A DNA stretch of 64,000 nucleotides. Source: Aromatoleum petrolei. Its GTDB lineage: Bacteria > Pseudomonadota > Gammaproteobacteria > Burkholderiales > Rhodocyclaceae. Under the pieces are notes generated by a model. That model had not been told where the DNA came from, did not search any database, and saw only the letters and a list, made by a program, of their open reading frames with translations. The stretch spans positions 5,154,501 through 5,218,500 of the forward strand of contig NZ_CP059560.1 in the NCBI RefSeq assembly GCF_017894385.1, given 5' to 3'. Positions 7,798 to 45,601 of the stretch are shown piece by piece. The translations under genes were made by a program, and so were the position numbers. Numbering within the stretch: the first letter of the stretch is position 1; the number at the start of each line of letters is the position of its first letter.

Positions 7798-7803
7798 ACA
7801 ATC

Positions 7804-7809: not shown

Positions 7810-7814
7810 CGATG

Positions 7815-15811: not shown

Positions 15812-15819
15812 AGACGGGA

Positions 15820-15843
15820 AAGGGGCGCGTGTCGGGCGCCCTT
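15820..15843 (+). terminator. Possible terminator hairpin after the kinase operon
   Basis: Nine bases after the operon's last stop, AAGGGGCGC can pair with GGCGCCCTT across a short loop, with one bulged G. There is no clear T-run after it, so it is a weak candidate for an intrinsic terminator. Confidence 0.35.
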
Positions 15844-15943
15844 GCCTGTCAAGTGTCGCCGGATGTGCGCACCGCACGTGACATGGGACTCCGCTTTGCG
15901 CCCTCTACCACGACGAATGTAGATTTCATTGCCCGCACGAAGC

Positions 15944-15963
15944 CGACAACACCCTTGTTGTCG
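15944..15963. repeat. Small inverted repeat
   Basis: CGACAAC and GTTGTCG form a perfect 7-bp inverted repeat with a 6-base loop, between the kinase operon and the convergent ihfA-like gene. It might help end transcription from either side. No T-run is visible. Confidence 0.35.
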
Positions 15964-16089
15964 ACTGTGCTATTTAGGCGATGGACGTACGTACAGGGCA
16001 GTGCGTACTCGCTGGTGACGTAATCAAGGATGTGCCCGACAGGGTGAATCGGGGCCTTGCCGGGCCTAGGCAGGCTTGTCGGCTCGAAG

Positions 16090-16461: not shown

Positions 16462-17080
16462 GGCGGTTCTGCCCTTGTACGCGTGTTGTGAGTGAGATGC
16501 CCGAATTCTGCCATAGGCGCTCGACCGGGAACCTACCTCTGCCATCGGGTAGGTCGGACGGCGCTCGGACTGAACCGGCCGGCGGGAGCAGGCCAGCCGC
16601 GAGCGATCGCACGATCCGACCGGCCCCGGACCATCGATGTCGCCCACTATGACTTTCGGAAAGCGGGTCCATCAGCACAACGCTTAAGACAAGGAACGGC
16701 GTTGATGCGAGCAGTGCCGTCCGATAGATACAACGGCCCAGAAAGTCCCATCGATGCACCGTACGCGAATCGCGCTCACGAACTTGTGCATTTGGCCTTC
16801 GCCACCCAAAAACGTCGCTTGCTGTCCTGCAATCCGGTGCTATACCGACACAATGCTAGAAGACATTGCCGCCCATCTCGCATAGTCAAATCGGGCGGGC
16901 AGGGGCGTAAGCCGTGCGAGAGGAAAGGGCGTTTCGGCCTTCGCGCAGTAATGTCAACGTTTTTCGGTGGATTCAGCGACGCAATGATGATGTCGGCCGT
17001 GCTCTTCCTATTAGGCATATGATGCCGCGAGGGGCATTAGCGAGTTTGCGTAGAAGTTGTGCTGCCCGGAGCTTCTTCTT
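16462..17080. other. Gap without a recognised gene
   Basis: This stretch separates the minus-strand ihfA-like gene from the plus-strand PhoD-like gene and should hold promoters for both. Two open frames (about 177 and 80 codons) have compositions and sequences that look non-coding. I see no RNA gene and no clear sigma-70 boxes. Confidence 0.4.
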
Positions 17081-18529
17081 ATGGCTAACAGCTCAGTCAT
17101 CACAGTGCCAGGAAGGCCTGGATTTAATGGTCTTTTGTGGTGGTTTCAAGGGCCGACGAGCAGTCTGGATCAGTTTTCGTTCGAGCTCGATGGTAGCCCG
17201 ATCACAGTGGAGGCTGGTTCCGTCCGGTTGATTCCGTTGACCGGCCTGGGAGGGAGCCCCTCCGGCTCTCCTGCCGATCGAAGTTTTCTGCTGATTACAT
17301 CGCATGCGGGACAGAAGCCGGGCACAGCGCACCAGCTACGAGTGACTTGCGCGGGCCAGACGAGCAACATTGCACGCTCTAGGACCCTACCCGAAACTCC
17401 GGATACCCTTGAAATCGTCCTGGCAAGCTGCTTTTACCGGCAGAACAATCGAATGACGGGCGCTATGCCTCTGCCCAAGCGATTCATGCCGCCAAACCCG
17501 CCGCCTCATCTGAAGATCCTTAGCGGCGACCAGATCTACCTCGATCTCAGCGGTGTCGGCTTGCCGGTCTTTAATATGAAGAATCCGTGGGACGACTACG
17601 CACGCCAGTGGCGTGACCCAAAATTTCTCGCTTGGTTGAGTTCCGGACCTAACATCTGCATGGCCGACGACCATGAATTTTGGAACAACTACCCGAAGAA
17701 GATCCGCCTGGCGAAGTTTGCCTCCTCAATCTTCAAGATTCCTGCTCGGGAAGTCATTGATGAAATGCACTGGGGATTCCTCGTCTATCAGGCTGCCCTC
17801 AATGCGGACCCCGATCACCTACTGGCGAATCCTGTCGCATTACTCGACCCAGATGACTTGAAATGTTTTGAGTTCCCGAACCCGGCGACCACCCCTCAGT
17901 TCACACGCGGGTTCAGCGCCTTCTTTCTCGATACTCGAACTGAACGAGCAGAGTCTCCTGAGGGAGGGTTCACCAAGGCGGCGTGGCTTCGTCGGGCAAT
18001 CGACTGGATTGAACAACGCAACGGCCCAGGATTCCTCGTTACTTCACAGCCATTGCTTGGCGAACCCAGCAAGTCTGAGACAGACCTCGCGTACTTCAAG
18101 AATCAGTTCTTCGACCTATGGCATGCGATCCAGGCCAGCAAACATCAGCTGACGTTGCTCACGGGTGACATTCACTGGAGCAGAGCTCAGGAGATTGCAA
18201 GCATAGCCGGGGCGGTCCCTCACTACGAGGTCGTATCATCGGCGATCTCTCGCATTGCCCTATACGACCCGACGGCCTCATTGGGGCGAGTGCGAACCCA
18301 AACAAAGCTCGGGAATACACGTGTTGCCACCGCGGTTCGATTAGCAGACAGCAACGCGGCCCAGAATTTCGCGGTCCTTACGTTCGCCGCTGGCGCCCGT
18401 GGCGGCCTGAAATGCACCGTCCAGTGGTGGCAGTTTGACGAGAACGGAGCAATCTCCTTGGCCGACGTTTATCCCGGCTGGGGAGACTTGTTCCGCCGAA
18501 AGATGAAGGTGGAGTTCGAGATAGCTTAG
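17081..18529 (+). CDS. PhoD-like metallophosphatase/phosphodiesterase
   Basis: The 482-aa product carries the ordered motifs of the PhoD/metallophosphatase fold. SGDQIYLD (about 146-153) stands for GDxxY, MADDHEFWNN (about 193-202) for the DDHE-x-x-NN metal site, and LLTGDIHWS (about 358-366) for the GD-x-H site. Known relatives cleave phosphate mono- or diesters outside the cytoplasm. I see no Tat or Sec signal here, so this member may be cytoplasmic or exported another way. The ATG at 17081 has GGAG upstream; a GTG-type start 24 bases earlier is possible but adds a cysteine-rich leader with no support. Twelve bases separate it from the next gene, and the two are probably one operon. The substrate is unknown. 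Confidence 0.8.
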   Translation: MANSSVITVPGRPGFNGLLWWFQGPTSSLDQFSFELDGSPITVEAGSVRLIPLTGLGGSPSGSPADRSFLLITSHAGQKPGTAHQLRVTCAGQTSNIARSRTLPETPDTLEIVLASCFYRQNNRMTGAMPLPKRFMPPNPPPHLKILSGDQIYLDLSGVGLPVFNMKNPWDDYARQWRDPKFLAWLSSGPNICMADDHEFWNNYPKKIRLAKFASSIFKIPAREVIDEMHWGFLVYQAALNADPDHLLANPVALLDPDDLKCFEFPNPATTPQFTRGFSAFFLDTRTERAESPEGGFTKAAWLRRAIDWIEQRNGPGFLVTSQPLLGEPSKSETDLAYFKNQFFDLWHAIQASKHQLTLLTGDIHWSRAQEIASIAGAVPHYEVVSSAISRIALYDPTASLGRVRTQTKLGNTRVATAVRLADSNAAQNFAVLTFAAGARGGLKCTVQWWQFDENGAISLADVYPGWGDLFRRKMKVEFEIA

Positions 18530-24050: not shown

Positions 24051-24356
24051 TCAGTCCGATGCGTTGATCTCGTCGGTGAACTCTCCGTCGCGCAATGCGC
24101 GGCTGATGGCGGCATCAAGCCGGATCAGGAGCTCGTAGAGGGTTTCGCCGTCGCGGCGCTGGAGGATAGCCAAGCAGTTGTGGTCGTCGTTGGCGATGGC
24201 GACGCAGCCGACGGGGTACAACTGCCCGAGGGTGATTTGCCCTTCGGTCTCGATCAGGGAGGTGACGTTGGGGAGGCCGGCCAGCGGATCGTCCGCCGGG
24301 CCTGGCGCTACGCGGCTTCCTGGTTTGCTTCGACCGGGGCGAGTTCGACGTTCCAT
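24051..24356 (-). CDS. Accessory small protein at the end of the IS66 element
   Basis: The 101-aa frame starts inside the 3' end of tnpC (49-base overlap, different frame) and runs almost to the left end of the element. The product reads cleanly as a folded protein: [20 protein letters not shown], then [20 protein letters not shown], then a helical [16 protein letters not shown]. To my memory, similar small frames occur downstream of tnpC in other IS66 members, with no known role. The overlap implies translational coupling. The start could instead lie upstream in the same frame, because the frame stays open through tnpC. Confidence 0.6.
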
Positions 24357-25828
24357 GGCAGCAACTCCTCGATGCGGTTGACCGGGTGCTCGGCGATGCG
24401 CGCGAGCACGTGGCGCAGGTAGGCCTCCGGATCCAGATCGTTGAGCTTGGCCGTGCCGATCAGGCTGTAGATCGCGGCCGCGCGCTCGCCCCCGGCGTCC
24501 GAGCCGGCAAAGAGGTAGTTCTTGCGGCCGATCGCCACGGTGCGCAGCGCCCGCTCGGCGGCGTTGTTGTCGATCTCGATACGCCCGTCGGCGGCGTAGC
24601 GGGTGAGCGCCGGCCAACGCGTGAGCGCATAGCGAATCGCCTCGGCCAGCGCCGAACGCTTCGAGATCTTGGTGAGCGTCTCGCCGAGCCAGTGCTGGAG
24701 CTCGTCGAGCAGCGGCACGGCGCGCGCCTGGCGCACCTCGCGTCGCACGTCGGGCGGCTGCCCGCGGATGGCGGCCTCGATCTCGTAGAGCGCGCCGATG
24801 CGCGTGAGCGCCTCGGTGGCGATCGGCGAGGCCTGCGCCTTCGCGAGCTCGTAGAACTTGCGCCGGGCATGCGCCCAGCAGGCGGCCTCGACGATGTCTC
24901 CGTCGGCATACAGCGGCTCGTAGCCGGCGAAGGCGTCGGCTTGCAGGATGCCTCGGTATGCCTTGAGGTGCGCCTGGGGATGTTCGCCGCGCCGATTCGG
25001 CGAGTAGGCGAACCATACGGCGGGCGCCGCGCGGTCGCCGGCCGGGCGATCGTCCCGAACGTAGGTCCACAGCCGCCCGGTGCGGGTCTTGCCTTCTCCC
25101 GGCGCCAGCACGGGCACCGGTGTGTCGTCGGCGTGGACCTTGGCGGCTGCGAGCACGTACCGGTTAAGCGCCTCGACGAGCGGGCGCAGCAGCGCGCTGC
25201 ACTGGCCGACCCAGTCGGCGAGCGTCGAGCGTTCGAGCGTGACGCCCGCCCGGGCGTAGATGTCGCTCTGGCGGTAGAGCGGCAGGTGGTCGCAGTACTT
25301 GGCGGTGAGGACATGGGCGAGCAGTCCCGCACCGGCCCGCCCGCGGGCAATCGGGCGGCTCGGTGCCGGCGCCTGGACGATCGCGTCACAGCGGGCGCAG
25401 GCAAGCTTCGGGCGCACGTGGCGGATCACCCGGAAGGAGTCGGGCACGTACTCGAGCATTTCGCTCACGTCTTCGCCGAGCCGCTTCAACGCGCCGCCGC
25501 AGTCCGGGCAGCAGCTCGCCTGCGGCGCATGTTCGAGCGGCTCGCGCGGCAGGTGCGCCGGCAACGGCTCGCGCGCGGCGCGTTCGGATTCGGTGCCGGG
25601 AATGCTCGGGGAAACGGCGACGGCGCGCTCGGCGCGCACCGCCTCGAACTCCTCGAGCGAGAGTTCCAGTTGGCCGATCGTCTCGTCGAGCTGCTCGGAG
25701 CGGCGGCCGAATTGCGCCCGGCGCAGCTTCGCGATGATGAAGTTCAGTCGCTCGATCTCGACCTGCTGGGCCGCGACCATCGCCTTGAGCAGCGTGGCAT
25801 CATCGGGCAGGGGCGAGGTCGAGTCCAT
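24308..25828 (-). CDS. tnpC: IS66 transposase (TnpC)
   Basis: The 506-aa transposase has an N-terminal leucine-zipper-like helix (about 10-60, with [13 protein letters not shown]) and a zinc-finger segment with CPDCGG and CARC. The DDE catalytic core contains [10 protein letters not shown], a central [13 protein letters not shown] and a C-terminal [11 protein letters not shown]. The closing [15 protein letters not shown] block is diagnostic for IS66. All key blocks are present and the frame is intact, so it is probably active. It catalyses cut and strand transfer of the element. Its 3' end overlaps the small accessory frame. Confidence 0.97.
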
Positions 25829-25880
25829 GAGGCGAGTCTACGCGAGTCGGCCCCGTGTGAACAGCCCCCCGGCAACCCTG

Positions 25881-26228
25881 CTATGCGGCGCATTCGGGCT
25901 GCCAGCTGCGCCGGGGCCGACGCCAGTCGATGCCTTCGAGCAGCATCGACAATTGCGCCGCGGTGAGATGGACTGCGCCGTCAGTCGCCTGCGGCCACAC
26001 GAAGCGCCCGTGCTCGAGCCGCTTGGTAAAGAGGCACACCCCGTCGCCGCTCCACCACAAGAGCTTCACCAGATGACCGCGCCGCCCGCGGAAGATGAAC
26101 ACGTGCCCCGAGAACGGATTCTCCCCCAGCGCGCCTTGCACCAGCGCGGCCAGACCGTCCATGCCGCGGCGCATGTCGGTGACGCCGGCCACGAGCCAGA
26201 TCCGGGTGCCCGCCGGCAGCCCGATCAT
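25881..26228 (-). CDS. tnpB: IS66 accessory protein TnpB
   Basis: The 115-aa product begins MIGLPAGTRIWLVAG and contains TDMRRGMDGL, FSGHVFIFRGRRG and KLLWWSGDG, the standard blocks of the IS66 Orf2 (TnpB) family. It is required for transposition of some IS66 members, but its biochemical role is not settled. The ATG overlaps the tnpA stop (ATGA), so the two are coupled. The gap of about 50 bases to tnpC is usual for the family. Confidence 0.95.
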   Translation of the reverse strand: MIGLPAGTRIWLVAGVTDMRRGMDGLAALVQGALGENPFSGHVFIFRGRRGHLVKLLWWSGDGVCLFTKRLEHGRFVWPQATDGAVHLTAAQLSMLLEGIDWRRPRRSWQPECAA

Positions 26229-26635
26229 GTCCGCGCGTCCAGGCAGTCGAGGACCGTGCGCAGCGCCTCGCGACTGACTTCGCCGAGCACCCGCACGGTC
26301 GCACTGCCGATGACGATCTCGAGCGCCGCCGACTGCTTCGCCTCCTCCAAGTCCTGGCCCGCGGTGGGCGACAAGGTCACCACCGGTAGCAGTTTCGGCA
26401 TCACGCCCCTGCCAGGCATCCCAGCTACATGCTCCGGCTGTGGCCTGCCGAACAGTCCGGCGCGGTAGTAGCGGCGCCACTTGAACAGCAGGTTGGCGTT
26501 GAGGCCATGCTCGAGTGCGAGCTTCGCGACTGAGATCCCCGCCTCGCACGCGAGACCGGCGAGGTGGCGTTTGACGTCGACCGGATAGTTCGGACGCCCC
26601 TTGCGGGTCACCCGCGTGATGCCATTCGTAGCCAA
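26225..26635 (-). CDS. tnpA: IS66 accessory protein TnpA (helix-turn-helix)
   Basis: The 136-aa product has the helix-turn-helix region of IS66 Orf1 (HLAGLACEAGISVAKLALEHG, then LNANLLFKWRR). A Pro-rich linker and a C-terminal ALEIVIGSATVRV ... VLDCL segment follow. It probably binds the element's ends. The start is uncertain: a TTG giving ATNGITRVTRKGRP is chosen because family proteins begin shortly before the basic GRP segment; the frame is open for 16 more codons upstream across a palindrome. Confidence 0.88.
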   Translation of the reverse strand: MATNGITRVTRKGRPNYPVDVKRHLAGLACEAGISVAKLALEHGLNANLLFKWRRYYRAGLFGRPQPEHVAGMPGRGVMPKLLPVVTLSPTAGQDLEEAKQSAALEIVIGSATVRVLGEVSREALRTVLDCLDART

Positions 26636-26642
26636 AGTGGTC

Positions 26643-26662
26643 CCCACCAAATATTTGGTGGG
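26643..26662. repeat. Perfect 20-bp palindrome before tnpA
   Basis: CCCACCAAATATTTGGTGGG is fully self-complementary. It sits 7 bases before the proposed TTG start of tnpA, within the IS66 right end. It could be an operator, a hairpin that hides the ribosome site against read-through transcription, or a transposase-binding site. Confidence 0.7.
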
Positions 26663-26693
26663 CGCCACTCTGGGCGATCTCAATCAGAGACGG

Positions 26694-27480: not shown

Positions 27481-28653
27481 TCACCCTGTGGCACTGTATG
27501 CTTCTCCGGTCAAAAGCAGCAGCGAGACATCAGGCTTCGACTGCTGCAGCAACTCGACGGAAGCGAGGTACCGCCTCGGCTCTGCATGCGGAATCGCCAC
27601 ACCATACTTCGCGTTCAAGTCGGAGGGACGCATCTCAAAGCACGCCAAGCCGGCACCCAGGGTGATGAGCTTGCTTCCCAGTGGGGTCATCACCAGTCGG
27701 CAACCTCCCAGAATCGTCATGCTGTGTTGGTAGCGCAGCATCGCGCCCAAAAGCTGCCGGTAGGCTTCGAACGGCTGCAACTCGTGGGCATAGAGGATAT
27801 TCGACGTCGGCGTCTTGCGGCTGTCGAACAGTGGCTCGCGGTACTCCACAAGCAGTCGATCCGCCTGCCGCGGATCCTTGGAGGGATGGGGTACGACCGG
27901 ACAGACCTCCGCTTCCGTCGGTATTGAGCCTGCGATCTTCTGCAACTGGTTCACTCGCCCTTCGCCAAGAACAGGAAACCAGACCAGGGGCCAGTCCTGA
28001 ACACGCTCCGCCTGCCATGCAGCGAAGAAGCCTGGGATGTTTAGCAGATCGTTGCTCGGATCTTCGGCCCGGATCTGTCCATCCAGCTTGGCGTCTTCCG
28101 CGACCAATACCTGGAAGTTAACCCCATTGGCATACAAGGGGTGAGCCCCACCTTCGACAGCCGTCTTGTTGGGGACGAGCTTTTGCAGGATGTTAGTGAG
28201 CAGGGCGAGGTACGTTGCGCGCGGCAAGGAGCTTACGTCGAGGATGATGTCCGTCTTACCACCCATCTCATCCAGAACCGTCTTAACGCGCTGGCGCAGC
28301 GCATCGCTGGCACTCGCCTCTTCCTCCCCCTCCGGCGTCTCGATCGTGATAGTGGTCGTCTCACCAAGCGGTGAGAACGCCGCCTTCAATGCCGCAGCGT
28401 TCTCGTCGGTGAGCTCTTGAATTCGCTTGTCCAGTTCGTAGCCGTCGAGCCCGAGCAACAGCAGCTTGGCGCTCACCGTTCGGCGTCCGGCTCCCCGTTG
28501 TCCCGCCACGAATTCGCGCATCACCGCCTGTGCACGAACGTCAAAACCACGACCTGCAATGTACAGCAACTTGGCGGGGCGGTCCTGCAACAAACTGTCC
28601 CACAGCTCGTGCACTGCGTTGCCGCGACGGAACACGTAGTGGTCCCAGAGCAT
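27481..28653 (-). CDS. Unrecognised 390-aa protein, last gene of the NADAR-PRTase-ATPase operon
   Basis: I do not recognise this family. The N-terminal half looks like an alpha/beta (Rossmann-type) fold: strand LLYIAGRGFD, helix, strand KLLLLGLDG, later TDIILDVSSLPRATYLALL with a D-x-S-S-x-P-R motif on a strand end. The second half has VCPVVPHPSKDP, SNILYAHELQPFEAYRQLL and VMTPLGSKLITLGAGLACF. There is no membrane segment, P-loop or nuclease motif. It starts one base after the ATPase stop and ends the operon. A sensor, adaptor or enzyme acting on the system's small molecule are all possible; the motif near residue 140 is the best place to look for function. Confidence 0.85.
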   Translation of the reverse strand: MLWDHYVFRRGNAVHELWDSLLQDRPAKLLYIAGRGFDVRAQAVMREFVAGQRGAGRRTVSAKLLLLGLDGYELDKRIQELTDENAAALKAAFSPLGETTTITIETPEGEEEASASDALRQRVKTVLDEMGGKTDIILDVSSLPRATYLALLTNILQKLVPNKTAVEGGAHPLYANGVNFQVLVAEDAKLDGQIRAEDPSNDLLNIPGFFAAWQAERVQDWPLVWFPVLGEGRVNQLQKIAGSIPTEAEVCPVVPHPSKDPRQADRLLVEYREPLFDSRKTPTSNILYAHELQPFEAYRQLLGAMLRYQHSMTILGGCRLVMTPLGSKLITLGAGLACFEMRPSDLNAKYGVAIPHAEPRRYLASVELLQQSKPDVSLLLLTGEAYSATG

Positions 28654-28654
28654 G

Positions 28655-30571
28655 CTAGATCGCCTCCTGGCTCTTGCGGATGGGTGTCAAGCGGCGCTCC
28701 ATCCATTTCATCAGTTCGCCGACGGAAACATCCCGCCATCCGCCCATTTGAAGGGGTAGGCCGTAGTGCGCGCACAATGAGCGATTCAGATAGAATACGG
28801 TGCCGCTGTCGCGCGAACCCGTGGCTTGGCTCTCGCGTTGGACCAGCAGGTTCTCCGCTGCGCACTCCGCCAGTACCCGTTGCAATATGATGCCGTTGGG
28901 TCCGAGCGGATTGGAGGGAGCGGTGAGCTTCGTCAATTCCGAACGGGACAAGCGCACGCCAGTGACGCCCGGTGCATAGGGAGCGTTCGGCGCGAAGGTC
29001 TGCTCATAGCAGAACGCGCCAATGGAATCCAGAAGCCTTTGTGCTCGTGTGCCTTCGGTATGCGATTTGGGGATGAACTCGCGCTTGCGACCAGCCGCCT
29101 CGCGCAGGAGTTTGTCCTGCTCAAGGGGAGACAAGATCGGCTCGGACTTGCGCAGCACCTGCTTGGTCTGCAGGCCAACGTAGAGCGCCGCGGCAAGAGC
29201 CAGCAGTTCCTCAACATTGTTCGTTGCCATAACACAAAGACGTTCGAACCCAAAGTAGTACGGAATGCCCAACTCCTCGTGCATGAACAGTTCGGCTGCG
29301 CCGCGCAGCTGGGAACTGTCGCGATCTTCGAGTTCCTCCTCGGTCAACGTCAGGTCTAGAGACAACTGGCGCTTGGACGCGTCGCGAACCAGCAGGATAC
29401 GTGTGACGTAGAGCTCCAGCAGCGATTCCAAGTTCTGGTCAACGGTGTACTGGTCCGCTCGCGCAAGCCATTGCGCGTAGCGCAAGTTGGATTGGTGACG
29501 CTCCACTTCGTTGCGAAAACGCTGAATGCCATCGGCTACTTGGCTGCGCACCTCGCTACTGACCAGTTTGTCTCGCAGGCATTGCGTGAACGACCCCGCC
29601 GGCACCGCGTCCTGGTTTTTCATCCGGCGATCCAGAATGTTCTGTGCGTAGGACACGAACTGGTTCGCCCCCTTAGGATCGCTCCACATCCTGTCCAGAT
29701 TGTACTCGCGCAGATCGCGGCCTTCGCGCACGCCCTGGGACAGCAATTCCGTTCCCAACGCCACCGTGCGCTCCGCGAGCCAGACCGGAATGGATGGGCG
29801 CATCACCGTCAGATCGTCGATCAACAGGGCTCGCTGCCTGCGTCGCAACTTGTGCATGTCATCGACCATTAACAAGCGCTGTCCGGCAACAACTCGACCT
29901 TCGTAAAGGAACTGGATTGACTGCAACCACAGCACCCCCTCGAAGCGTAAATGGCTTGGCAAAGTCGCGCTGGTGGGCTCAATGAAGGAGTCCAACTGCG
30001 CATAGACGCGCTGCTCGTGCTCCTCAGCCCAGGTGGCGAGTTCCAAAGCATTGCGCCGTTCCGGAATGCCCTGCAGTCTCGGCACTGTGGCATAGTCAAG
30101 CGAGATCTCGGCCAGTTGCTCCGGCGCGCTGAGTCCAAGCAATGCACCTAGGCTACGCAGCGTGCGCAACACGATGCGGCAATCCAGAAGCGCCCGGAAC
30201 AGCCCTTCCTGTTGCAGGCCCTCGCTGGAGGGCAGATCGGCGAAACCAGAAGCGCAGCTGAGGAAAACGCCGAGCAGCTGAGGGCTGTCGTCCTCGGTCA
30301 GCAATCCGCGGTTGAGCAGCTTCTGGAACGACTCGGACAACTCTGGCCGATTGCGGGAGTTCCAGAACGCCCGTAGTGCCGACGGCGTGAAGGCGCGCAG
30401 CAGCGTCGTCTTTCCGGCACCGGGCGCGCTGCGGAACATGTGCACTGCGCCATCGAACGCGTCCTCATCCAGCTTCTCAAGGATCTTGGGCGAAAACAGC
30501 CGCACGAACTCCATGTCTGAGGTGGTGCGTTCGGACATGCGCTCCAGGAAGGGGTTGGTGTTGTAGGCCAT
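28655..30571 (-). CDS. ORC/CDC6-like P-loop ATPase of a conflict-type operon
   Basis: The 638-aa product has a clear Walker A, SAPGAGKT (48-55), and Walker B, LLMVDD (233-238), followed by MHKLRRRQR. The opening NPFLERMSERT and the unusually long, helical A-to-B spacing differ from standard AAA proteins. They fit the ORC/CDC6-like or STAND-like ATPases found in prokaryotic conflict systems. The C-terminal third (about 430-638) is helical and may be a winged-helix or sensor region. It should be cytoplasmic and may be the sensing or switching part of the system. The ATG overlaps the stop of the phosphoribosyltransferase-fold gene by one base. A longer frame upstream is open, but this ATG is the coupled one. 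Fold assignment is by motifs only. Confidence 0.85.
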   Translation of the reverse strand: MAYNTNPFLERMSERTTSDMEFVRLFSPKILEKLDEDAFDGAVHMFRSAPGAGKTTLLRAFTPSALRAFWNSRNRPELSESFQKLLNRGLLTEDDSPQLLGVFLSCASGFADLPSSEGLQQEGLFRALLDCRIVLRTLRSLGALLGLSAPEQLAEISLDYATVPRLQGIPERRNALELATWAEEHEQRVYAQLDSFIEPTSATLPSHLRFEGVLWLQSIQFLYEGRVVAGQRLLMVDDMHKLRRRQRALLIDDLTVMRPSIPVWLAERTVALGTELLSQGVREGRDLREYNLDRMWSDPKGANQFVSYAQNILDRRMKNQDAVPAGSFTQCLRDKLVSSEVRSQVADGIQRFRNEVERHQSNLRYAQWLARADQYTVDQNLESLLELYVTRILLVRDASKRQLSLDLTLTEEELEDRDSSQLRGAAELFMHEELGIPYYFGFERLCVMATNNVEELLALAAALYVGLQTKQVLRKSEPILSPLEQDKLLREAAGRKREFIPKSHTEGTRAQRLLDSIGAFCYEQTFAPNAPYAPGVTGVRLSRSELTKLTAPSNPLGPNGIILQRVLAECAAENLLVQRESQATGSRDSGTVFYLNRSLCAHYGLPLQMGGWRDVSVGELMKWMERRLTPIRKSQEAI

Positions 30572-31677
30572 CAGAACTCTCGATGGCGGCTGACACGGGG
30601 GAACAAGCCATGCGGCTTGAACTGTTCCGGCCCCCACAGCAGGAAAACCGAGTTGTTTGGCGTATTGTGGCCCAGTACAACCGGTAGCGCGCACCCGGCG
30701 AAGCCCAAACCGGCATCGTCCGTTCCCCCGACGAGAAAGTTTTTGTCGACCACGCTGTTATTGCAATACGCAGGATTCGCCAGCAGGGCTTGCAGTTCAG
30801 TGTCGGAACTCCGAGATAAGGAAACTTCGGACTCTATCGGGCAGAGAATGCGCACCTGTAAGGGCTTGAAACCGTGGTCTGTCGTAAAGCGTTCGGACCA
30901 ATACTCGATATGGTCGATCGCCTGACGCGTTGCAGTGTAGAGCATCAGGAACACCTCGTAGTGCGATGGATCCACCATGCCTCTCTGGTGAAGCCGCTGG
31001 TAGATCTTCGGCAGCTTGCCCTTGAACCTGCGTGACGCTCCGTCGTACCGAATGTAGGTGTTGCCGCTACCCGAGAAGTCGTCAAGTAACCAGATCAGGT
31101 TGAAGTGGGGAGCATCGGACGGGAAGCCTGCCTTTTGCAACGACGCTGCGAGCTCGTCGAGCATATCCCCGGCCTTCTCGTCGCCCAACTCGTAGGCCTG
31201 CCAGATCTGCTCGTTGCCGATCTCCCCGTCGCTGGCACGGCGCAGCTCATTGGTGCGGGCGCCGTCACTCAGACCGAGGTACAGCGACGTCAGACGAAGT
31301 TGTTCGAAGCGCCGATGCCGTGCGATCTCCTGGACCTTGAAGGACGGGATCTCGTGCTCCTCCGATACCAGACGCATCCGTTCCTGTACGATCCAGTCGC
31401 GATATGCCGTGCGCACGAGGTGCGAGAGCTCGGCGTCGGAGATGAACACCAAGTGGTCGAGGACCAGCCTCAGCGCTGTCGATCGATCTTGAGGTTCGAA
31501 CTGGTGGAGCCACAATGCAAGGCTTTCGATGAAGCGGCGGCCCGGGCCAAAGCGCTGATAGTGGTCATACTTGAAGTCGGCCAGCAACTGGAGGGTTGGC
31601 AGAACCTGTGGCACGGCCTCCAGGTCCTCCCACCCCATTACCTTCGCCAGCATTTTGGCAGCATTCTGGTCACGCAT
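30571..31677 (-). CDS. Phosphoribosyltransferase-fold protein (PRTase-CE-like)
   Basis: The 368-aa product has a helical N-terminal region (about 1-185). An alpha/beta domain follows, with LLDDFSGSGNT (197-207), the acidic-pair PRPP loop of type I phosphoribosyltransferases (hydrophobic-DD-x-x-x-(S/T)G-x-T). Later segments VRILCPIES, GTDDAGLGFAGC and VFLLWGPEQF fit the end of a PRTase fold of the kind described in bacterial conflict systems. It could attach a base or small molecule to ribose-phosphate, or sense PRPP or nucleotides. The ATG lies inside the 3' end of the SIS-HAD gene (8-base overlap), and its stop overlaps the ATPase start, so it is strictly coupled to both. The catalytic reaction is unknown. 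Confidence 0.85.
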   Translation of the reverse strand: MRDQNAAKMLAKVMGWEDLEAVPQVLPTLQLLADFKYDHYQRFGPGRRFIESLALWLHQFEPQDRSTALRLVLDHLVFISDAELSHLVRTAYRDWIVQERMRLVSEEHEIPSFKVQEIARHRRFEQLRLTSLYLGLSDGARTNELRRASDGEIGNEQIWQAYELGDEKAGDMLDELAASLQKAGFPSDAPHFNLIWLLDDFSGSGNTYIRYDGASRRFKGKLPKIYQRLHQRGMVDPSHYEVFLMLYTATRQAIDHIEYWSERFTTDHGFKPLQVRILCPIESEVSLSRSSDTELQALLANPAYCNNSVVDKNFLVGGTDDAGLGFAGCALPVVLGHNTPNNSVFLLWGPEQFKPHGLFPRVSRHREF

Positions 31678-33655
31678 CGCCGTCGCTCCCACGGTCACGG
31701 TCGCGCGGGAGGTCCACGCGGAACACACCTTCGCCTTCTTCCGTCATCCGCTCGAGGTACCACAGCGTGGCATCGACGTCCCGCTTCTCGGTCGGCGCCA
31801 GCTTCCATCCGCGGTCTAGGCGGCGCGAAGGAACGTCGACACTCAGTGAGTACCGGTGTTCTAGGAGCGCCGCGTCGTTCCCGGGCCAAGCACCCTGGTC
31901 ACCCATGGTGAGGACTTGATAGGGATCGATCTTGTCTTGCTGGATGATGTGCGCGATAAGTGCCGACTTACTCACGCCACGAGCGAGGATGTCCACGGAG
32001 TGCTTGCTGCGTACCATCGTCGACAGATCTAGCCCCGCTTGGCGCAAGGCGTCGGCAATCACAAACCACATAGCATCGGTCGCGATTCCTTCGCCAAAGC
32101 GCACGCTCACCTGGTATGGATGCGTGGTGCGGTGGGCAAGGATTGGCACGCCCAGCGCCTTCAAACGCACCACAATACGGGTCACGTGGCTGAGGAACTC
32201 GCTTGTCTCCTGCGGCGGCGCCGGAGGTACATCCGCCGTGGAAATCCAGCCTCCGTTGTAAAGCCCCAGCCGTATCTTCGGCAGGACGTCCTGTGGTACG
32301 GCTTCCTGAAGGCAGGTCTGGATCGAGCCGCCCCGTCCTGAGGCGATGCCAACGACAATGCCGGCGCGGGCGAGTCGCACCAAGTGCTCAACAACATCCT
32401 GCGACGGTGGGCCGTCCTTGCTCTGCGAACTACACAGGGTCCCGTCGTAGTCGAAAACCACCGCCTTGAAGCGCTGCGCGCGGATCGTGTCGGCGAAGGT
32501 CTGCGCCGCCCGGCGCATCGTGCCGTGATTCCTCTGGGACGGCCAATGGGCTCCGAGAACTTCGTACTTGGACTGCTCCTCGTCAGGCCCTGGCGCCTTC
32601 GGCAATGGGATCACGTCACGCAGGTTCGCGTAGTGGATCTCCCGCCCATAGCTCGGCACATCCGGTCGCCCGGGATCCTTGCCCAGTGCGCGGCCGATCG
32701 CCGCCACCAAGTGCATCTGCGCAACCAGTCCCGCGATCATGTGAACGGGGGCAACACTGGATAGCGGCATGGCAAGCGTGGGAATGTCGGCAGGAAATTT
32801 GCTGCGCATGCCTTCCCAGAGCTTGTCTAGGGAGGGCTCGACTAGGGCGAGGATCGCACAATCCTGAGGGCGCTGCGCCAGCCAGAGGTGCCTGCCATGT
32901 GCATAGGACCGCAAATCGGCCAACTGTGTGTGCAGGAGCGCTCCTTCGGAGAGCTTCGACTCCAGATCGGCGGCGACGGGGCGCAGAAGGGGCGAGTAAA
33001 CGACGGTGAGTGCTCCCCGCCGCACTGCTTCGGTAACGAATGGCATTGCCGAGTCAAGCCAAGCATCCACGGGCTGATTGCCGACCCGAAGCGCTGCCAT
33101 GTTTGCAGGCATCGGTTCAGAGTGCCCGTTAAGCTCGCCATACGCCCTGGCTACCAAGACAGCGTCAAGCAGCAAGCTGTTGGTCGCGAGGTAGCCGTCC
33201 TTCTTGTCGAGTTCGAAGACGTACGGCTTCACCCCCGGAAGCGCATGCACATGCTCCATCAGCACGCTGTCCTGCCGATTGGTCAATACGTGGACCGTGC
33301 GGGGGCTGAAACGCCGTGCCCGCTCGAGCGCCTCCACGATATCTGGGTTCTTGCCCTCGGCCGAAACGAGAAAGACTGGACTGGAAGAAGCCAGCGCAGG
33401 ACTACAGATAATCTCCAGCGGCGTGGAGGGGCGTGAGACTCGCCCCGTGTAGGCCTCGTGCAGACTGCACAGCAGCGACGCCACCGTGAAGGAGCCGCCG
33501 GAACCCACGCCGATCATGCTGGACTCGGCGGTGCTGGCAATCGCGAGTTTCAACGAGTCGATATCGGCGGCGCACGCCGCCGAATAACTGTGCCCGAGCT
33601 GCGCGAGTTCGTCTTCGTAATGGCTGGCGACCGTCTGCATATTCTGCCCGGTCAC
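31670..33655 (-). CDS. SIS domain-HAD phosphatase fusion protein
   Basis: The 661-aa product fuses two enzyme-like domains. Residues 1-330 form a double SIS region like GlmS-type sugar isomerases, with GVGSGGSFT (49-57) for phosphosugar binding and a second Rossmann unit (about 200-330). Residues 395-640 form a HAD phosphatase: motif I DYDGT (402-406), motif II in GIASGR, the cap, and motif IV GDQGAWPGND (585-594), with Lys in VSKSALI. Motif I has a second Asp two residues after the first, so phosphatase activity is expected. The start is GTG overlapping the NADAR stop (GTGA). A sugar- or ribose-phosphate is the likely ligand, and the domain pair may make or trim the molecule handled by the neighbouring PRTase and NADAR proteins. 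Confidence 0.9.
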   Translation of the reverse strand: MTGQNMQTVASHYEDELAQLGHSYSAACAADIDSLKLAIASTAESSMIGVGSGGSFTVASLLCSLHEAYTGRVSRPSTPLEIICSPALASSSPVFLVSAEGKNPDIVEALERARRFSPRTVHVLTNRQDSVLMEHVHALPGVKPYVFELDKKDGYLATNSLLLDAVLVARAYGELNGHSEPMPANMAALRVGNQPVDAWLDSAMPFVTEAVRRGALTVVYSPLLRPVAADLESKLSEGALLHTQLADLRSYAHGRHLWLAQRPQDCAILALVEPSLDKLWEGMRSKFPADIPTLAMPLSSVAPVHMIAGLVAQMHLVAAIGRALGKDPGRPDVPSYGREIHYANLRDVIPLPKAPGPDEEQSKYEVLGAHWPSQRNHGTMRRAAQTFADTIRAQRFKAVVFDYDGTLCSSQSKDGPPSQDVVEHLVRLARAGIVVGIASGRGGSIQTCLQEAVPQDVLPKIRLGLYNGGWISTADVPPAPPQETSEFLSHVTRIVVRLKALGVPILAHRTTHPYQVSVRFGEGIATDAMWFVIADALRQAGLDLSTMVRSKHSVDILARGVSKSALIAHIIQQDKIDPYQVLTMGDQGAWPGNDAALLEHRYSLSVDVPSRRLDRGWKLAPTEKRDVDATLWYLERMTEEGEGVFRVDLPRDRDRGSDGDA

Positions 33656-34251
33656 GCCGTTGCGGGCGCCCGTTTGGACGCGGTCTTGATGCTTCCCGGC
33701 GTCTTGCCTGCTGCCGAGGTCTTGGACTTGGTATTCTGCGCCGGCTGCTGACGATAGTCTGCCCGCAGCTCCATCAGCATCACACCGAGCATGTTCTCGC
33801 CCTTGCCATCAACCTCGCCCCACAGCCGGTTAACGGCGTTGTTGACGGTCCCGGCTTCCACGAGCCTCGCATCACCGGTCGACAGCAACAGATCCCGTAG
33901 GTCGGCGTGTTGATCGAACTTCGCGCGTAGCACGGCGCGCATGCGATCGAACTTGATCTTCGCCCAGTCGGGCACCACGTCCCAGACGTAAAGACCGTGG
34001 GCCGCCATGGCGGCCAAGGCGGGAGTGGGGGCACTGAGGATCCAATCGCGAACCGCGGGTTTGCGGGCCTTGCCCGCCTGGTAAGCGTGCTCGGATGTGG
34101 GATAGGTGGTCCCCTCAAAGTCGATGGGGCGCTGAAACAGATTGCTGAAGGCGCCATACGGCTTTTCGTTGGCGCGATAGAAGCGAATCTCCGGGGCAGC
34201 GGCCGTATTATCGGTGGGGCGCTCGCACGCCGCCTGTCGTGTCTTTGTCAT
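33652..34251 (-). CDS. NADAR-family protein (YbiA-like)
   Basis: The 199-aa product has the NADAR fold signature: YGAFSNLFQRPIDFEG, then YPTSEHAYQAGKA, a central MRAVLRAKFDQHADLRDLLL and a late VNRLWGEVDGKGENMLG. Members act on riboflavin precursors (YbiA/RibX-like N-glycosidase) or, in later work, remove ADP-ribose from guanine bases. NADAR proteins are common in NAD/ADP-ribose-linked conflict systems. The C-terminal 35 residues are Ala/Lys/Thr-rich and basic, perhaps for nucleic-acid contact. The ATG is coupled to the upstream regulator (ATGA overlap) and its stop to the SIS-HAD start. It is probably an immunity or processing enzyme in the operon. Confidence 0.9.
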   Translation of the reverse strand: MTKTRQAACERPTDNTAAAPEIRFYRANEKPYGAFSNLFQRPIDFEGTTYPTSEHAYQAGKARKPAVRDWILSAPTPALAAMAAHGLYVWDVVPDWAKIKFDRMRAVLRAKFDQHADLRDLLLSTGDARLVEAGTVNNAVNRLWGEVDGKGENMLGVMLMELRADYRQQPAQNTKSKTSAAGKTPGSIKTASKRAPATA

Positions 34252-34445
34252 TGACGAGATACCTTGACATAGTGTTCGGGACTGAGGCCCAGCGTCCGGC
34301 AATGGTTGACGATGAGCACTTCCAAAAGGCTGGTGAGGCTGCGGTGTTCATGCTCCGCCGCAGCCTCGGCCGCGGCTTTGATCTTGGGATCAAGCCGAAC
34401 TGTAAGGGTGGCGGTCTTTACCTTCGGACGTCGTGTGGTGGTCAT
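34248..34445 (-). CDS. Ribbon-helix-helix regulator, first gene of the operon
   Basis: The 65-aa product has a beta strand TATLTVRLDP followed by two helices (KIKAAAEAAAEHEHRS, then LTSLLEVLIVNHCRTLG), the layout of MetJ/Arc-type ribbon-helix-helix DNA-binding proteins and many antitoxins. The ATG is chosen because MTTTRRPKVK leads directly into the strand; the frame is open 26 codons further up across the putative operator. It overlaps the NADAR start by four bases. A perfect inverted repeat 45-60 bases upstream is a likely binding site, suggesting that the operon is autoregulated. Confidence 0.8.
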   Translation of the reverse strand: MTTTRRPKVKTATLTVRLDPKIKAAAEAAAEHEHRSLTSLLEVLIVNHCRTLGLSPEHYVKVSRQ

Positions 34446-39171: not shown

Positions 39172-41229
39172 TCAGGTATCCATGCCAGCGAGCCTCGCGA
39201 GCTTCTCGAGCAGGGACGTCTTTCCGCTTTCATTAAGGCGCATGACGCCGTTGGTGAGTGTCCCTAGGTAGAGTTGAATGAGACGGTCGTCGAGCAGCCC
39301 TGCAGAAACCGCCTCGTAACGCGTGCCATCCGTCTCCTGGTACACCATGAGATCGTGCAGATTGGAGAAGCCCATCGAGGCGTTCGCGGGCAGCAAGGCC
39401 GGAACAAAGTAACGTACAAAGGCGCCGCGATCCTCGATGAAAGACAGTTGCCGCCATTTCTTCAGCTGAGCGTCTCCGACACCGGTGTAGTAGGGGAGCA
39501 GGAGCCAGTTGGCTGCACGGCTATAGAGTCCAGAAGGAGAAACGCCACCGGCAGCCGTCATGTCCGTCAGGGCTTCCTCAATGCCGCAGTAGCGGGCATT
39601 GAGCAGGATCTTGGGTACGATGGCGCCAGTGAAGCGACGCAGGAAGACCGGTCGCTCGTTGTCGATGAGGTAGAAGTCGTCGCCTTTCAGTTTGCCCCCG
39701 AGGCACGGGAATCGTTTATGCAGGGCACCGAGCTCGTCGGGGGCGATGTCGGGCAAGAATTCTGTGTTGCGAAGGTGCAATGCGCCGTCGCTGATCTCGA
39801 ACTGGACGATGGCGGCCATTGAAAGGATTTCGCCATTGAACGTGTCCGGGCGCAGGCGTATGCGATCGGTGTGCAGCAGCGTGAATCGGCCTTCGGGCAA
39901 GCTCATGTCGACCGGGATCCTATTGCGGGAAAAGCTGTCCTTGATCGCCAGCTCCACCGCGCAACGCCGAATGGCGGCCATGTTCTCCGGTAGGCGTAGG
40001 TTGCCGTCTTCAATCTCGAGGTCGATCCCCTGCAGAACCGGATAAGCGCCGCGACGACGGTACAGGCGATCGAACTTGGCCCAAGTATAGGCATCGACGT
40101 CGTCGGCCAGCAGGATGTCCTGTGCAAGGCCATGGTAGGCATCCCAGGGACGGTCGAAGCGCGTGGTTTCGACCTGGATGCTGGTGCCGCTCACTTCTGC
40201 GCGCCGATTGAGCACCAGGCAAGCGGCACCTCGATCGAGATGATTCATCCACTGCCGGTCTCGCGCTGGCCCACCCCCGTTATGGAAGGACACCTGCGGG
40301 AACGTCACACCATCGGCCTTCAGTGCGTCGAGCAAACGACCGTGGGACTCGGCCGGCCATGACGCGCTGGTATTGTTGATGACGACGAGTGGCCGCGAGA
40401 CAGTGGCAATATCCGATAGCTGCACCCTCGGCACGGTCGTGGCGTGGGTGGGCGCGAAGGCGCGGCGCTCATGCGCCACGCCGGCTTGTTTGAGGATGTC
40501 CGAAAAGGTCTCGGTGAGGCGGTTCAGCAGGTACAGGCGCGAACCCGTCATGGCGGATTGCTTGAAGGAGATGTCATCCAAGTGCGTTTTCCGTCCATCC
40601 CACTTACGGATGCGATCAGGGGAAACCAGGGACAGGGAGAAGCCGGTTTCGTCCGGCGTCAGGACGTCTCCTGATTTCATCGCCCCGGGCAACACCTGCA
40701 TGGCCTTGGCTGCCAGAATGACCTGGACTTCTCGATGCAGGTAGTTGGTCTCGAGCAGAAACGCCTCGACGCCGGTCGCGCCCGCGGCAGCCTTGAATGT
40801 ACGCGCACCCAGATACACGGAGGGGCCCACAGCGTCAGCAAGCAGCCCCGGAGCCGAACGATTCAGGAGCGCCGCCAGTAGACACAACTGAATGATCAGC
40901 GGCGCGTCGCCGGCTTCGATCGCCGGCACCGCAGGGTCAGCGCCAGGCTCGAGGTAATAATACTGGCCAGCCCGTCGCCCACGGAGAAACGGGATATGGT
41001 GCGCCTCCAGGCCCGTCCGCTGGGCAATTTCGCGCTTGCGCGCCTGAATGGGCACCGCCGGCGATTTTCGGTGTGTCTTGTCGATTTCGGTGGAACGCAG
41101 TTGCCAGCGCTGACCGCCCGCGGCGAGCTGGCGTAGGAGCTTCTCGGCCGCGGCGATGTCGGTCGGTTCGGTGATGGTCAGAAAGTTGGTCCAGGCCGCC
41201 GGAACTGAAGGAGTGAGTGGTTCGAACAT
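39172..41229 (-). CDS. Unrecognised 685-aa partner of a helicase-nuclease
   Basis: I do not recognise this family. The protein has no membrane segment or P-loop. A central alpha/beta segment starts LVVINNTSASWPAESHGRLL and continues TFPQVSFHNGG; a Rossmann-like unit of this sort occurs in MID domains of Argonaute-like proteins, but I cannot identify a PIWI active site, so that idea is only a hint. The second half is rich in strands (GRFTLLHTDRIRL, KLKGDDFYLIDNERPVFL). The gene starts 12 bases after the helicase stop, with GAGGAA upstream, and nothing follows in the operon. It probably works with the helicase as a recognition or effector subunit. Confidence 0.85.
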   Translation of the reverse strand: MFEPLTPSVPAAWTNFLTITEPTDIAAAEKLLRQLAAGGQRWQLRSTEIDKTHRKSPAVPIQARKREIAQRTGLEAHHIPFLRGRRAGQYYYLEPGADPAVPAIEAGDAPLIIQLCLLAALLNRSAPGLLADAVGPSVYLGARTFKAAAGATGVEAFLLETNYLHREVQVILAAKAMQVLPGAMKSGDVLTPDETGFSLSLVSPDRIRKWDGRKTHLDDISFKQSAMTGSRLYLLNRLTETFSDILKQAGVAHERRAFAPTHATTVPRVQLSDIATVSRPLVVINNTSASWPAESHGRLLDALKADGVTFPQVSFHNGGGPARDRQWMNHLDRGAACLVLNRRAEVSGTSIQVETTRFDRPWDAYHGLAQDILLADDVDAYTWAKFDRLYRRRGAYPVLQGIDLEIEDGNLRLPENMAAIRRCAVELAIKDSFSRNRIPVDMSLPEGRFTLLHTDRIRLRPDTFNGEILSMAAIVQFEISDGALHLRNTEFLPDIAPDELGALHKRFPCLGGKLKGDDFYLIDNERPVFLRRFTGAIVPKILLNARYCGIEEALTDMTAAGGVSPSGLYSRAANWLLLPYYTGVGDAQLKKWRQLSFIEDRGAFVRYFVPALLPANASMGFSNLHDLMVYQETDGTRYEAVSAGLLDDRLIQLYLGTLTNGVMRLNESGKTSLLEKLARLAGMDT

Positions 41230-41241
41230 GGAGGATCTTCC

Positions 41242-44200
41242 TCAGGCGTGATGGGGGCTGGCCGGATCAAGCAGACGAAGCAGGCGGTCATTGATCCGGT
41301 AGCGGGTCCATCCATCGTCGTCGGGTTCGGCTACGAACAGGTTGAAGAAGTGAATGCGCCGACCTTCGAGCACTTCGGTACCGTACGGGCGTTCACCGCA
41401 CAGATTGACGTACAGCGGCACCACGGGCTTGTTGCCGAGCAGACGCTCGACCTGTTTTGCACGGAGGAGGGCCTTGCGTTGACTGGTCAGCGGAATTTGC
41501 ATGGCGACCTGCACGATTTCGGCCTTGCGAGGAGCGTTGTCACGCAGGGAACGCCCCGCCAGACGATCCGCGCGCCGGCTCCAGTTCTTCAGGTCGATTG
41601 CGTACACACACGACTCCGTTTCGACGAACTCGTCAAAGCGCTCGAATAGTTCTTCTGCATGCGGATGTGTCGCTGCGTCGATCGTCGCAACGCCCCGCCG
41701 GCGCAGCAGCTCGCTCATTACGAGCTCGGCGAAGTAGCCTTTCACGTAGTCGTTAAAAAATTGCGCTCGCGGCACGTGATCCTGAAACAGATGATCGAGA
41801 TCGATCTTTAGGCGTTTCATGATCTCCTGGAATTCCGGCGTGGCGCGCAAGCCCACAGGCGCCAGTTGCCTGCCTGGATCGAAGCGTCGTCCCTTGCTGT
41901 GATGGAGATCGGCATAGAACGCGAGTTGCCCGCGCACGGATTGCGCTACGTCGCAAACGGCCTCACCTAGAGCGTTTTCAGCATCATCGATGGCCTCGAT
42001 CGCCTTGTCGGCGCGCAGGATGTAGCGGTCGGCATGGTCATTTGCCACGAAGGCGTAATCGACAAAGCTGCGCCAGGCGCGTTCATCGACACCCGCCGGC
42101 GGCGACTGCAGCGATTCAAGGTAGGTGGCCGGATCGGTAAACATCAGCGGGCTGCGGATTTGCACCCAGGCTTCACGATAGGCGTTGTTGCGAAAGCCGC
42201 GGTAGATCCGGCGGCTTGCCTTCAGGAAGCTTGCGCCCAGTACGATCTCCTGACGCACGTATTCATTCCAGCCGGTCTCGTTGCTGAACATCGAGGTTCG
42301 TTTCATGAAAGCTTGCACGTGCTCGTACACCGCATGATTGCCAGCCGAGAGTCTTCGCGAAAAATCGGGTTCGAGTTTGTAGAACTGGGCGAGCTCGAGC
42401 ACGATCTCGTGGTTGAGCAGAATGCTTTGGGCTGCAACGCCGGTTTCAACGCGCTCGACGCGCCCGATCGTCTGCACCATGTCGCGACCGATCTTGCGGA
42501 AATATTCGTCGCGGAACGCCTCTTCGTGCTCATTGGCGATCGCCGCTGGCAATTCCTGATAGGTGTAATCGACCAAGCGGTCCTCGAGGTAGAGGTGCTG
42601 CAGCATCGCCTGCAGACGTTCCATGTGCACCAGGGACAGGTCGGGCACCCGATACAGGCCGTCGTAATAGGGCGACATCGCCACCATGAGGATGTCAAAA
42701 TCCTTGCGCCACGTGCCGTTCTTCTCCCGCCCGTCCGGCCCCGAGTGCTTGGGTGTGAGGTTCAAACCACGCGACGCCGAGCGAAAGCCGCTGATCATGA
42801 GTACCTTGTGCTCCGTTTCGTCGAGCAGGCCCTCGAGGATCGATTCGTCGTTTTCCTCGTCGATATCGTCTTCACCGAAGCGTCGGAACTCCCCGTCAAC
42901 GATGCGGCCAGGCTCCTTGCCGAAACCCGCGGTGTAGAGAATCAGGCGGACCTTGTCACCTGGCTGGCCGAACGCGACCGGATTCAGTGTGTAGAGCCCC
43001 CGGACGACTTCGTCTGCGGTGACACCCATCTGACGACGAGCAAGCCCGTCAACGATTGCGCGGATCTTGCTAACTGTTTGCGTGAATGCGATTGCTGACC
43101 GCTCTTGGCCGGTGGCGAGACGGCAAAGCAGGGCAGCGAAGTAGCGCAGCTCATCGAGCTTGTAGGGATTGCGTTCGCCACGACCATCGGGCTCGGCGGC
43201 CTCGAGCTCGTTCATCATTTCGCGCTCGAGACGACGGTACAGTGCGCCAGGCTCGATACGGGAAAGGAAGGTGTCACGATCGAAGTCCTGAACGCGCGTC
43301 TCGCGTAGCGCCTGGCGGTAATGCCTGAAGTCCGCCATAAAGCGGTACTCCGCATCACTTGCCCCCTCGACTCGGCCATCAACGTCCTTGAGGCGAGTCG
43401 CAAGATAGGGCAGGTTGAACCCGCCTCGGCACCCATGCATGCCGCCGGTGGCCGACATCAGGTAGGCAATATTGCCGGGCAGATGCTCGAACTCGCGGCG
43501 CTTCGCCGTGAGGAAGGCGTCCAGCAAGTCTTCGGGGGTCTTGCGCAAGACGGTTGTCGCAATCGACATTATGCGGAGGTCGTTGGCGTACTCCTCGCGC
43601 AGCACCGTGTCTTCAACGATACTCAAGGCGAATTTGCTGCGCCGGAAGACAATGTCGTCGGTGAGCGGCTCATCGGGCGCGCGCTGCGTCAGGCTCGGCA
43701 GGTCGTCCTTGTTGAGCTTCCAGCTCCCGATTTTTTGCCGGTATCGGCGCAGCACGTTCCATTGATGGTCTGTGATCTTCGCGGTCTTCTCCTTCGCGGG
43801 GGCCTTGATCGGGGTGTGCAGCAGTATGCGGGTGATGGCCATCACGAAACGCAGGAACTCGCCCAGAGAAAAGCTGTTGCGCTGCCGACGCAGATTCCCC
43901 TCCTGGTGGAGTGCATCGGCGCTCACCAGTTCAAGGTTGTTGTGCGCGACGGACGGCACGAGACGGATGCGTTCGAGGACTTGATGCTCGTAGAATTCGA
44001 GCCGCTCGTTGAAAAATAGGTACTCCAGTTCGCCGCTGAAATCGCGCAAAGTTGCGGCGTTTGCGAGGATATGCTTCTTGTCGTGAAACACGCGCTGGAG
44101 TCTGCGATAGACCTCGAACTCGCTCTGCGGCACCGTCGCATCCGGCCAGGGCTGGACCGCTTCGCGCGCGAAAATCTTGATGGCGTCAATGATCTTGAGC

Positions 44201-45429: not shown

Positions 45430-45601
45430 GACAAAGCCCTTCACAGAAAAGACTGAAACTATCTTAGCAGGGGTGACATCTCGGCACGATAGCAAATCAC
45501 ATTGGTATAATTTTCAGTTTTGCAAAAGTGCAGGTCGAAGAACGAAGGCGGAAAGAAAAGGGAGATAGGGGGAAATTTCAAGAAAGGCGGGCGCGCAGGA
45601 C

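Follow-up and report, generated by a model that had tools for sequence, protein, structure and literature searches.

What might a bacterium gain by joining, in one operon, an enzyme of the phosphoribosyltransferase (PRTase) fold, a switch-type ATPase, a ligand receptor and enzymes of sugar-phosphate and N-glycoside chemistry? This question is raised by six open reading frames, all on the minus strand, within a 64,000-nucleotide stretch of Aromatoleum petrolei DNA (contig NZ_CP059560.1, positions 5,154,501 to 5,218,500; the whole stretch is termed here the window). In order, they encode a small RHH-type DNA-binding protein, a NADAR N-glycosidase, a SIS-HAD fusion protein, a PRTase-CE enzyme, an ORC-CDC6-like ATPase and a CARF6 protein. 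Here profile searches, family alignments, structure predictions and comparisons with related loci are used to characterize these genes. They form a conserved and apparently mobile cluster, which probably serves antiviral defence. The best explanation, which is put forward tentatively, is a mobile defence-type system in which the ATPase and the receptor gate a transferase dependent on phosphoribosyl pyrophosphate (PRPP), and in which SIS-HAD, NADAR and--in relatives of the operon--a PfkB kinase handle the product.

Conservation, coupling and spread of the genes

When gene starts are taken from family alignments (for NADAR through CARF6; the RHH start was read separately), successive genes in the window overlap by 4, 4, 8 and 1 bases and the last junction is a 1-base gap, just as the original prediction, made from this sequence alone, had described. 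The window was compared with a close set of 36 related contigs from a species-genome collection, 32 of which extend to the NADAR gene. The order NADAR, SIS-HAD, PRTase, ORC, CARF is present in 29 of the 36 (including L032, where the CARF gene is cut by the contig end); six of the remaining seven are interrupted by contig ends, and the seventh, L013, is without ORC and CARF. This recurrence of the five-gene order across close contigs exceeds chance.

The original prediction also took the overlaps to imply obligate co-translation. For one pair of genes this idea largely survives: within the close set, PRTase and ORC meet at -1 in 29 of 31 cases and at 0 in the other two. Elsewhere coupling is looser, with ORC-CARF spacings of at most 10 bp at 30 of 31 junctions and close spacing at 27 of 34 SIS-HAD-PRTase and 26 of 32 NADAR-SIS-HAD junctions. 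(For these spacings each start was placed by the column in which the window's own start falls; in some rows that column of the alignment holds a gap or a non-start codon, a problem that is worst for SIS-HAD rows, so that the affected spacings are approximate.) Hence near-strict coupling is conserved only between PRTase and ORC.

The sixth gene, RHH (65 amino acids; positions 34248-34445), has relatives upstream in only 19 (by profile) or 22 (by tblastn) of the 36 contigs; it was therefore rejected as part of the core, and the predicted six-gene set holds as five genes conserved in order. The window protein's RHH matches all fall below Pfam cut-offs, and no inverted repeat was reported upstream of the gene at the settings used. 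It is a probable regulator of the operon and would autoregulate its transcription.

Among genomes the cluster is sparsely distributed. Profile searches of 398 genomes of the phylum place PRTase-CE over cut-off in 18, and SIS-HAD and CARF6 are confined to an identical six. Five of these are among the genomes with PRTase-CE over cut-off; the sixth is G204, whose contig stops right next to CARF. Among 21 relatives the PRTase occurs in one, namely A. petrolei's own genome. In a PRTase tree the window joins Burkholderiales and Chromatiaceae rows (support 99/98), and rows titled Acidobacteriota, Chloroflexota, Nitrospirota and Thermodesulfobacteriota are interspersed among pseudomonadal rows; the deep order is unsure, given the long branches of L099, L094 and L101. 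This cross-phylum mixing suggests horizontal transfer, with the proviso that some rows are metagenome bins. Plasmids are one place where the cluster's relatives reside: 19 plasmid records encode them, eight of which are typed as conjugative. No match was found in 50,697 phage records, which is neutral with regard to a defence role. An empty insertion site, sought in the genus by way of the GGDEF/EAL flank, was not found; this search returned only matches of about 66%, most likely to paralogues.

The core triad and its associated enzymes

The PRTase-CE enzyme (368 amino acids; positions 30571-31677) carries the PRPP loop DDFSGSG and scores 59.5 bits against Pfam PF24390 (cut-off 27), and loop residues D217 and G222 are kept in all 58 rows of the family. 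The adjoining ORC-CDC6-like ATPase (638 amino acids; positions 28655-30571), with Walker A motif PGAGKT and Walker B motif DD, scores 78.1 bits against PF24389 (cut-off also 27); K95 of Walker A is present in 53 of 54 family rows and D278, the first Walker B aspartate, in all 54. Searches of PDB sequences found no meaningful relative with either the PRTase protein or the PRTase profile, and only P-loop stretches with the ORC profile. Two structures were predicted, from 38 and 36 aligned rows; SIS-HAD, ORC and NADAR are outside this modelled set.

The last gene (390 amino acids; positions 27481-28653), which had been called unknown, encodes a tandem CARF-type receptor already represented by a PADLOC model: it scores 403.7 bits against PDLC01910 (CARF6) over residues 1-386 of 390, and three divergent full-length relatives (L081, L091 and L094) score 369-410 bits. 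Its predicted fold is that of a CARF protein, and a fold search shows two halves, whereas the model's name speaks of three CARF units. In structure it comes closest to a type III CRISPR nuclease that is activated by cyclic oligoadenylate, with Csm6 as the next match; no effector domain was found fused to the protein, and a PDB sequence search with the CARF profile gave no meaningful relative. Residues G36, F37, D38 and K328 are each present in at least 16 of 17 members. Both profile and fold thus refute the label 'unknown'. CARF6 was reportedly classified within the CARF superfamily by Makarova et al. in 2020.

The SIS-HAD fusion (661 amino acids; positions 31670-33655) combines a SIS-type phosphosugar isomerase/deglycase part with a HAD-IIB phosphatase part. 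The HAD part exceeds its Pfam cut-off, with the HAD-IIB subfamily just below the NCBIfam cut-off (40 vs 41.8 bits). On the single protein the SIS match is weak (12.1 bits; cut-off 25), and a PDB sequence search with that protein gave no meaningful relative; the family profile, however, matches the SIS-type chains 3fj1, 2aml and 3eua, the last of which is a putative fructose-aminoacid-6-phosphate deglycase. Residues D402, D404, K563, D586, E237 and H253 occur in 53-54 of 54 rows. The NADAR protein (199 amino acids; positions 33652-34251) is of the YbiA (glutamate) type: it scores 89.7 bits against PF08719 and 83.2 bits against TIGR02464 (cut-off 73.7), its profile matches the YbiA structure 2b3w (E 5e-38), and the glutamate of its LMELR motif is invariant in 27 of 27 rows. 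NADAR also evolves slowest, with a median of 66.7% between divergent loci (8 rows) vs 28.0-36.3% for the other five families compared--a degree of conservation that fits a fixed substrate. Across these families the catalytic motifs are near-invariant, where we take the HAD aspartates, the SIS glutamate and histidine, the PRPP loop and the Walker motifs to be catalytic. The domains originally called (NADAR, PRTase, SIS-HAD and ATPase) are thus borne out both by profiles and by motif conservation.

PRTase-CE also occurs in other company. In L072 it accompanies a type III-A retron reverse transcriptase (461 bits against the reverse transcriptase model). In L071 it is followed by an ORC-CDC6-like ATPase (424 bits), with no match in that locus to the CARF or SIS-HAD profiles of the window's families. 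In L068 (4671-16691) Pfam places adjacent PRTase-CE and NADAR genes between a helicase with a NO VEIN C-terminal domain and a DUF1156 methyltransferase, and L069 (4902-16914) has the same PRTase-NADAR arrangement, as read from its PRTase match, layout and NADAR profile; this helicase-methyltransferase locus resembles a DISARM-type system. NADAR thus pairs with PRTase-CE in a second setting, and the swapping of PRTase-CE between sensors (L072, L071, L068) suggests an effector role.

Plasmid relatives and genomic surroundings

Seventeen of the 19 plasmid records were analysed (H13 and H14 were left out), with iterated profiles that were partly built from the loci they scored. The PRTase-ORC-CARF triad occurs together with SIS-HAD in 15 of the 17, the exceptions being L099, without ORC, and L100, with PRTase alone. 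The original prediction would have been abandoned had homologues proved to be scattered; instead, co-location is strongly conserved, both here and in the close contigs. Although the order of modules varies--SIS-HAD lies before or after the triad, and PfkB at several places--PRTase, ORC and CARF are consecutive in every plasmid locus that has all three. Fourteen of the 15 triad-bearing loci, all but L090, also encode a PfkB kinase, as do four divergent loci from genomes (L076, L080, L081 and L089); none was found in the 36 close contigs within the stretches examined. PfkB is thus a member of the wider system that was not met with in the window's own clade. NADAR lies inside the stretch in eight of the 15, on the opposite strand in six of these.

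Two plasmid loci hold more than one set. In L101 (Sinorhizobium plasmid, 2-12134) one SIS-HAD/PfkB/NADAR set lies between two triads, the second of which has its PRTase split across two frames; in L092 (Rhizobium plasmid, 4346-17124) a triad is accompanied by a second PRTase-ORC pair, which is truncated by the end of the stretch before any CARF. Within these loci the paired PRTases are 32-35% alike, the ORCs 21-22% and the L101 CARFs 26%, and each set is nearer to triads of other loci than to its locus partner. Hence one metabolic module seems to serve different, anciently diverged triads. L106 (7977-15465), which is counted among the 15, holds a copy of the operon with PRTase, CARF and SIS-HAD each in pieces, and L100 (7977-9038) a solitary PRTase-CE that is near that of L097, has a diverged C-terminus and has no adjoining ORC or CARF.

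The window itself contains further defence-type genes, as the original prediction had it. Positions 47750-58837 look like a second defence-type cluster: a large DUF4011/MTES_1575 helicase-nuclease (PADLOC PDC-S37, 1251.6 bits; Hhe models also match), and next to it genes for a metallophosphoesterase and a HATPase_c_3 protein and one small open reading frame. At 46185-47306 there is a protein with helix-turn-helix and IrrE-type peptidase domains that matches the RmrA and capP models. Adjacent proteins of 685 and 1417 amino acids (39172-45495) have no Pfam match over cut-off and no PADLOC match; the second has a weak DEAD match below cut-off. IS66 transposase-like open reading frames (24308-26683), which were read from translations alone with no family search made, lie beside the end of the operon, and an IS66 transposase also adjoins the operon in L033. 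A further cluster, at 2617-15811, consists of hybrid histidine kinases of the multi-PAS and GAF kind together with receivers and EAL proteins.

Weighing the possible functions

Four of the families--PRTase-CE, ORC-CDC6-like, CARF6 and NADAR--are already catalogued, and the operon can be set beside several known systems. A PRTase-CE/ORC-CDC6-like conflict dyad was reportedly described by Burroughs and Aravind in 2020; here two neighbouring genes exceed the cut-offs of both Pfam models and follow each other as they do in L071, and the window operon adds to them a CARF6 receptor and a sugar/N-glycosidase module. For CARF6 the profile match is full-length, and the PADLOC model gives no partner genes. 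The window PRTase matches the PADLOC PRTase_III-A models of type III-A retrons (best 52.5 bits), whereas the sole retron PRTase scored, that of L072, reaches a far higher 284 bits; no reverse transcriptase match was found among the six operon proteins. A DprA-PRTase pair, compared here by its description, likewise joins a PRTase to a nucleic-acid-related sensor and protects against phages T7 and lambda (PMC9122126); the operon has no DprA match. Of the validated systems in the 2026 DefensePredictor survey, one has a PRTase and others have NADAR domains; CARF and ORC do not appear in its main text as far as this is available (PMC13092281); the window NADAR scores 63.5 bits against NCBIfam DS32_2, far under the cut-off of 240. 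The DarT1-NADAR and YarT-YbiA toxin-antitoxin pairs share a NADAR of the glutamate (YbiA) type (PMC11125620); the operon's transferase has a PRTase fold instead, and no ADP-ribosyltransferase match was found among its six proteins. With the Ter system, a PRTase, a HAD phosphatase and ligand-binding partners are in common (PMC7824862); Pfam finds no Ter domains among the six. The gene combination as such was not found in the literature, among the matches listed, and an earlier description in the 2015 or 2020 surveys of CARF and conflict systems is possible.

The computations show directly that the genes are conserved together and coupled, which domains and predicted folds their products have, and which catalytic motifs these carry. 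From this we infer a defence role, a direction of control, a substrate and roles for the accessory module that would fit together as follows. The core would be the triad, in which the ORC-like ATPase would sense the threat or act as a switch and the tandem CARF receptor would sense a nucleotide, the two together gating the PRTase. As the output enzyme, the PRTase would move phosphoribosyl onto a base or base-like target, yielding a growth-arresting or signalling N-glycoside, depleting PRPP, or both. SIS-HAD, with PfkB in most relatives outside the window's clade and with NADAR within it, would form a phospho-sugar/N-glycosidase module, shared between triads, whose task would be to limit, recycle or shape this product: NADAR may cleave its N-glycosidic bond, and SIS-HAD may isomerise and dephosphorylate the sugar phosphate. 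An effector role for the PRTase is favored by the swapping of PRTase-CE between sensors and by the protection afforded by the DprA-PRTase pair (PMC9122126). NADARs act as antitoxins that reverse guanine ADP-ribosylation (PMC11125620). The originally predicted removal of an adduct by NADAR, as a form of immunity, fits the PRTase-NADAR pairing of L068 and L069.

Several observations weigh against this explanation. Seven of the 15 triad-bearing plasmid operons are without NADAR within about 8 kb, so that NADAR is not an obligatory antidote encoded there and the notion of a full set that always comprises five or six genes including NADAR has to be rejected. Two of three aligned retron-type PRTases read TD rather than DD in the PRPP loop, and thus the retron-type family may work without this chemistry. 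In L099 (6288-12532), on a Streptomyces plasmid, PRTase-CE precedes, without ORC, a weakly CARF6-like protein (E 1.8e-6) that is without most conserved CARF6 residues, including the G, D and K listed earlier; its neighbours are an inositol-monophosphatase family gene, two PhyH dioxygenases and a glucose-6-phosphate isomerase, with an isocitrate lyase/PEP mutase family gene nearby. This cluster looks biosynthetic, which would favor signal synthesis or metabolism. Finally, among ten neighbours of the system elsewhere (chosen by hand, one per locus, out of 14 listed loci), one is a clear defence match, PD-T7-1 in L014 (555.3 bits); a mad8 match is by Pfam a TrwB-type transfer protein, one of four neighbours that are integrase, IS66 transposase or transfer genes. 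The surroundings speak modestly for defence and more strongly for mobility.

What the receptor reads bears on two other explanations. Most CARF receptors are tied to cyclic oligoadenylate, and the CARF6 protein might read a ligand made in trans, whether a cyclic oligoadenylate or a CBASS nucleotide; the operon's other genes would then be an accessory effector module of type III CRISPR or CBASS. Its structural matches point that way, as does a SMODS (CD-NTase) match in A. petrolei's own genome--which is weak (27.8 bits vs 26.5) and the only one over cut-off among the six system-carrying genomes in which cyclases were sought. PF22335, a broad model of the Cas10 palm, exceeds its cut-off in three of the six, at no more than 31.3 bits; because E. 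coli is also over cut-off, these matches are most likely to GGDEF-type palms, and the model was rejected as an unspecific test for Cas10. Csm1 and Cmr2 are over their curated cut-offs in none of the six, which makes a type III CRISPR source in trans unlikely in these genomes. No usual source of a CARF ligand was clearly found beside the operon. We consider this explanation, with a ligand from elsewhere in the cell, very unlikely. Alternatively, PRTase and SIS-HAD, with PfkB where present, might themselves make a soluble PRPP-derived messenger, which CARF would read to drive ORC and which NADAR would destroy. A CARF without a cyclase in its operon suggests this, in genomes where Csm1 and Cmr2 stay below cut-off and SMODS exceeds it in one of six; so does a proposal for Ter systems, by which a nucleotide signal is produced by PRTases with HAD enzymes and perceived by ligand-binding domains (PMC7824862). 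That L092 and L101 each place one module next to two diverged PRTase-ORC sets agrees with it, as does the conservation of NADAR, which would be expected for a fixed small substrate. That PRTase-CE elsewhere accompanies sensors without a window-type CARF, however, suggests an effector rather than a synthase, and the plasmid operons without a nearby NADAR also tell against it; we regard it as possible though doubtful. Its boldest form would be self-contained immune signalling: PRTase-CE, SIS-HAD and PfkB would produce a new class of messenger (a PRPP-derived, non-cyclic nucleotide or a phospho-sugar N-glycoside), the tandem CARF would read it, ORC would relay it and NADAR would quench it, such that one synthesis and quenching module can feed two independently evolved receptor sets. 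This we consider unlikely.

A role unrelated to defence, in which the operon serves catabolism or damage repair with unusual nucleosides or glycated bases as its substrates, has in its favor the match of the SIS profile to the putative deglycase chain 3eua, the prevalence of PfkB among the plasmid operons, the Streptomyces L099 cluster, and the suggestion that riboflavin intermediates are NADAR substrates (PMC11125620). In such a pathway an ORC-type switch ATPase and a CARF receptor would be atypical; moreover, the distribution is patchy (among the relatives, A. petrolei alone), PRTase-CE is found in a retron, and the recurring genes include no transporter. This role is accordingly quite unlikely, and a gated, PRPP-dependent transferase remains the explanation tentatively preferred.

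Retron PRTases have been called probable effectors, and how PRTase effectors act is unknown according to that work (PMC9122126). Solving this operon could show how they act, and whether CARF reads ligands beyond cyclic oligonucleotides; its N-glycosidase, isomerase, phosphatase and kinase genes jointly constrain what the substrate may be.

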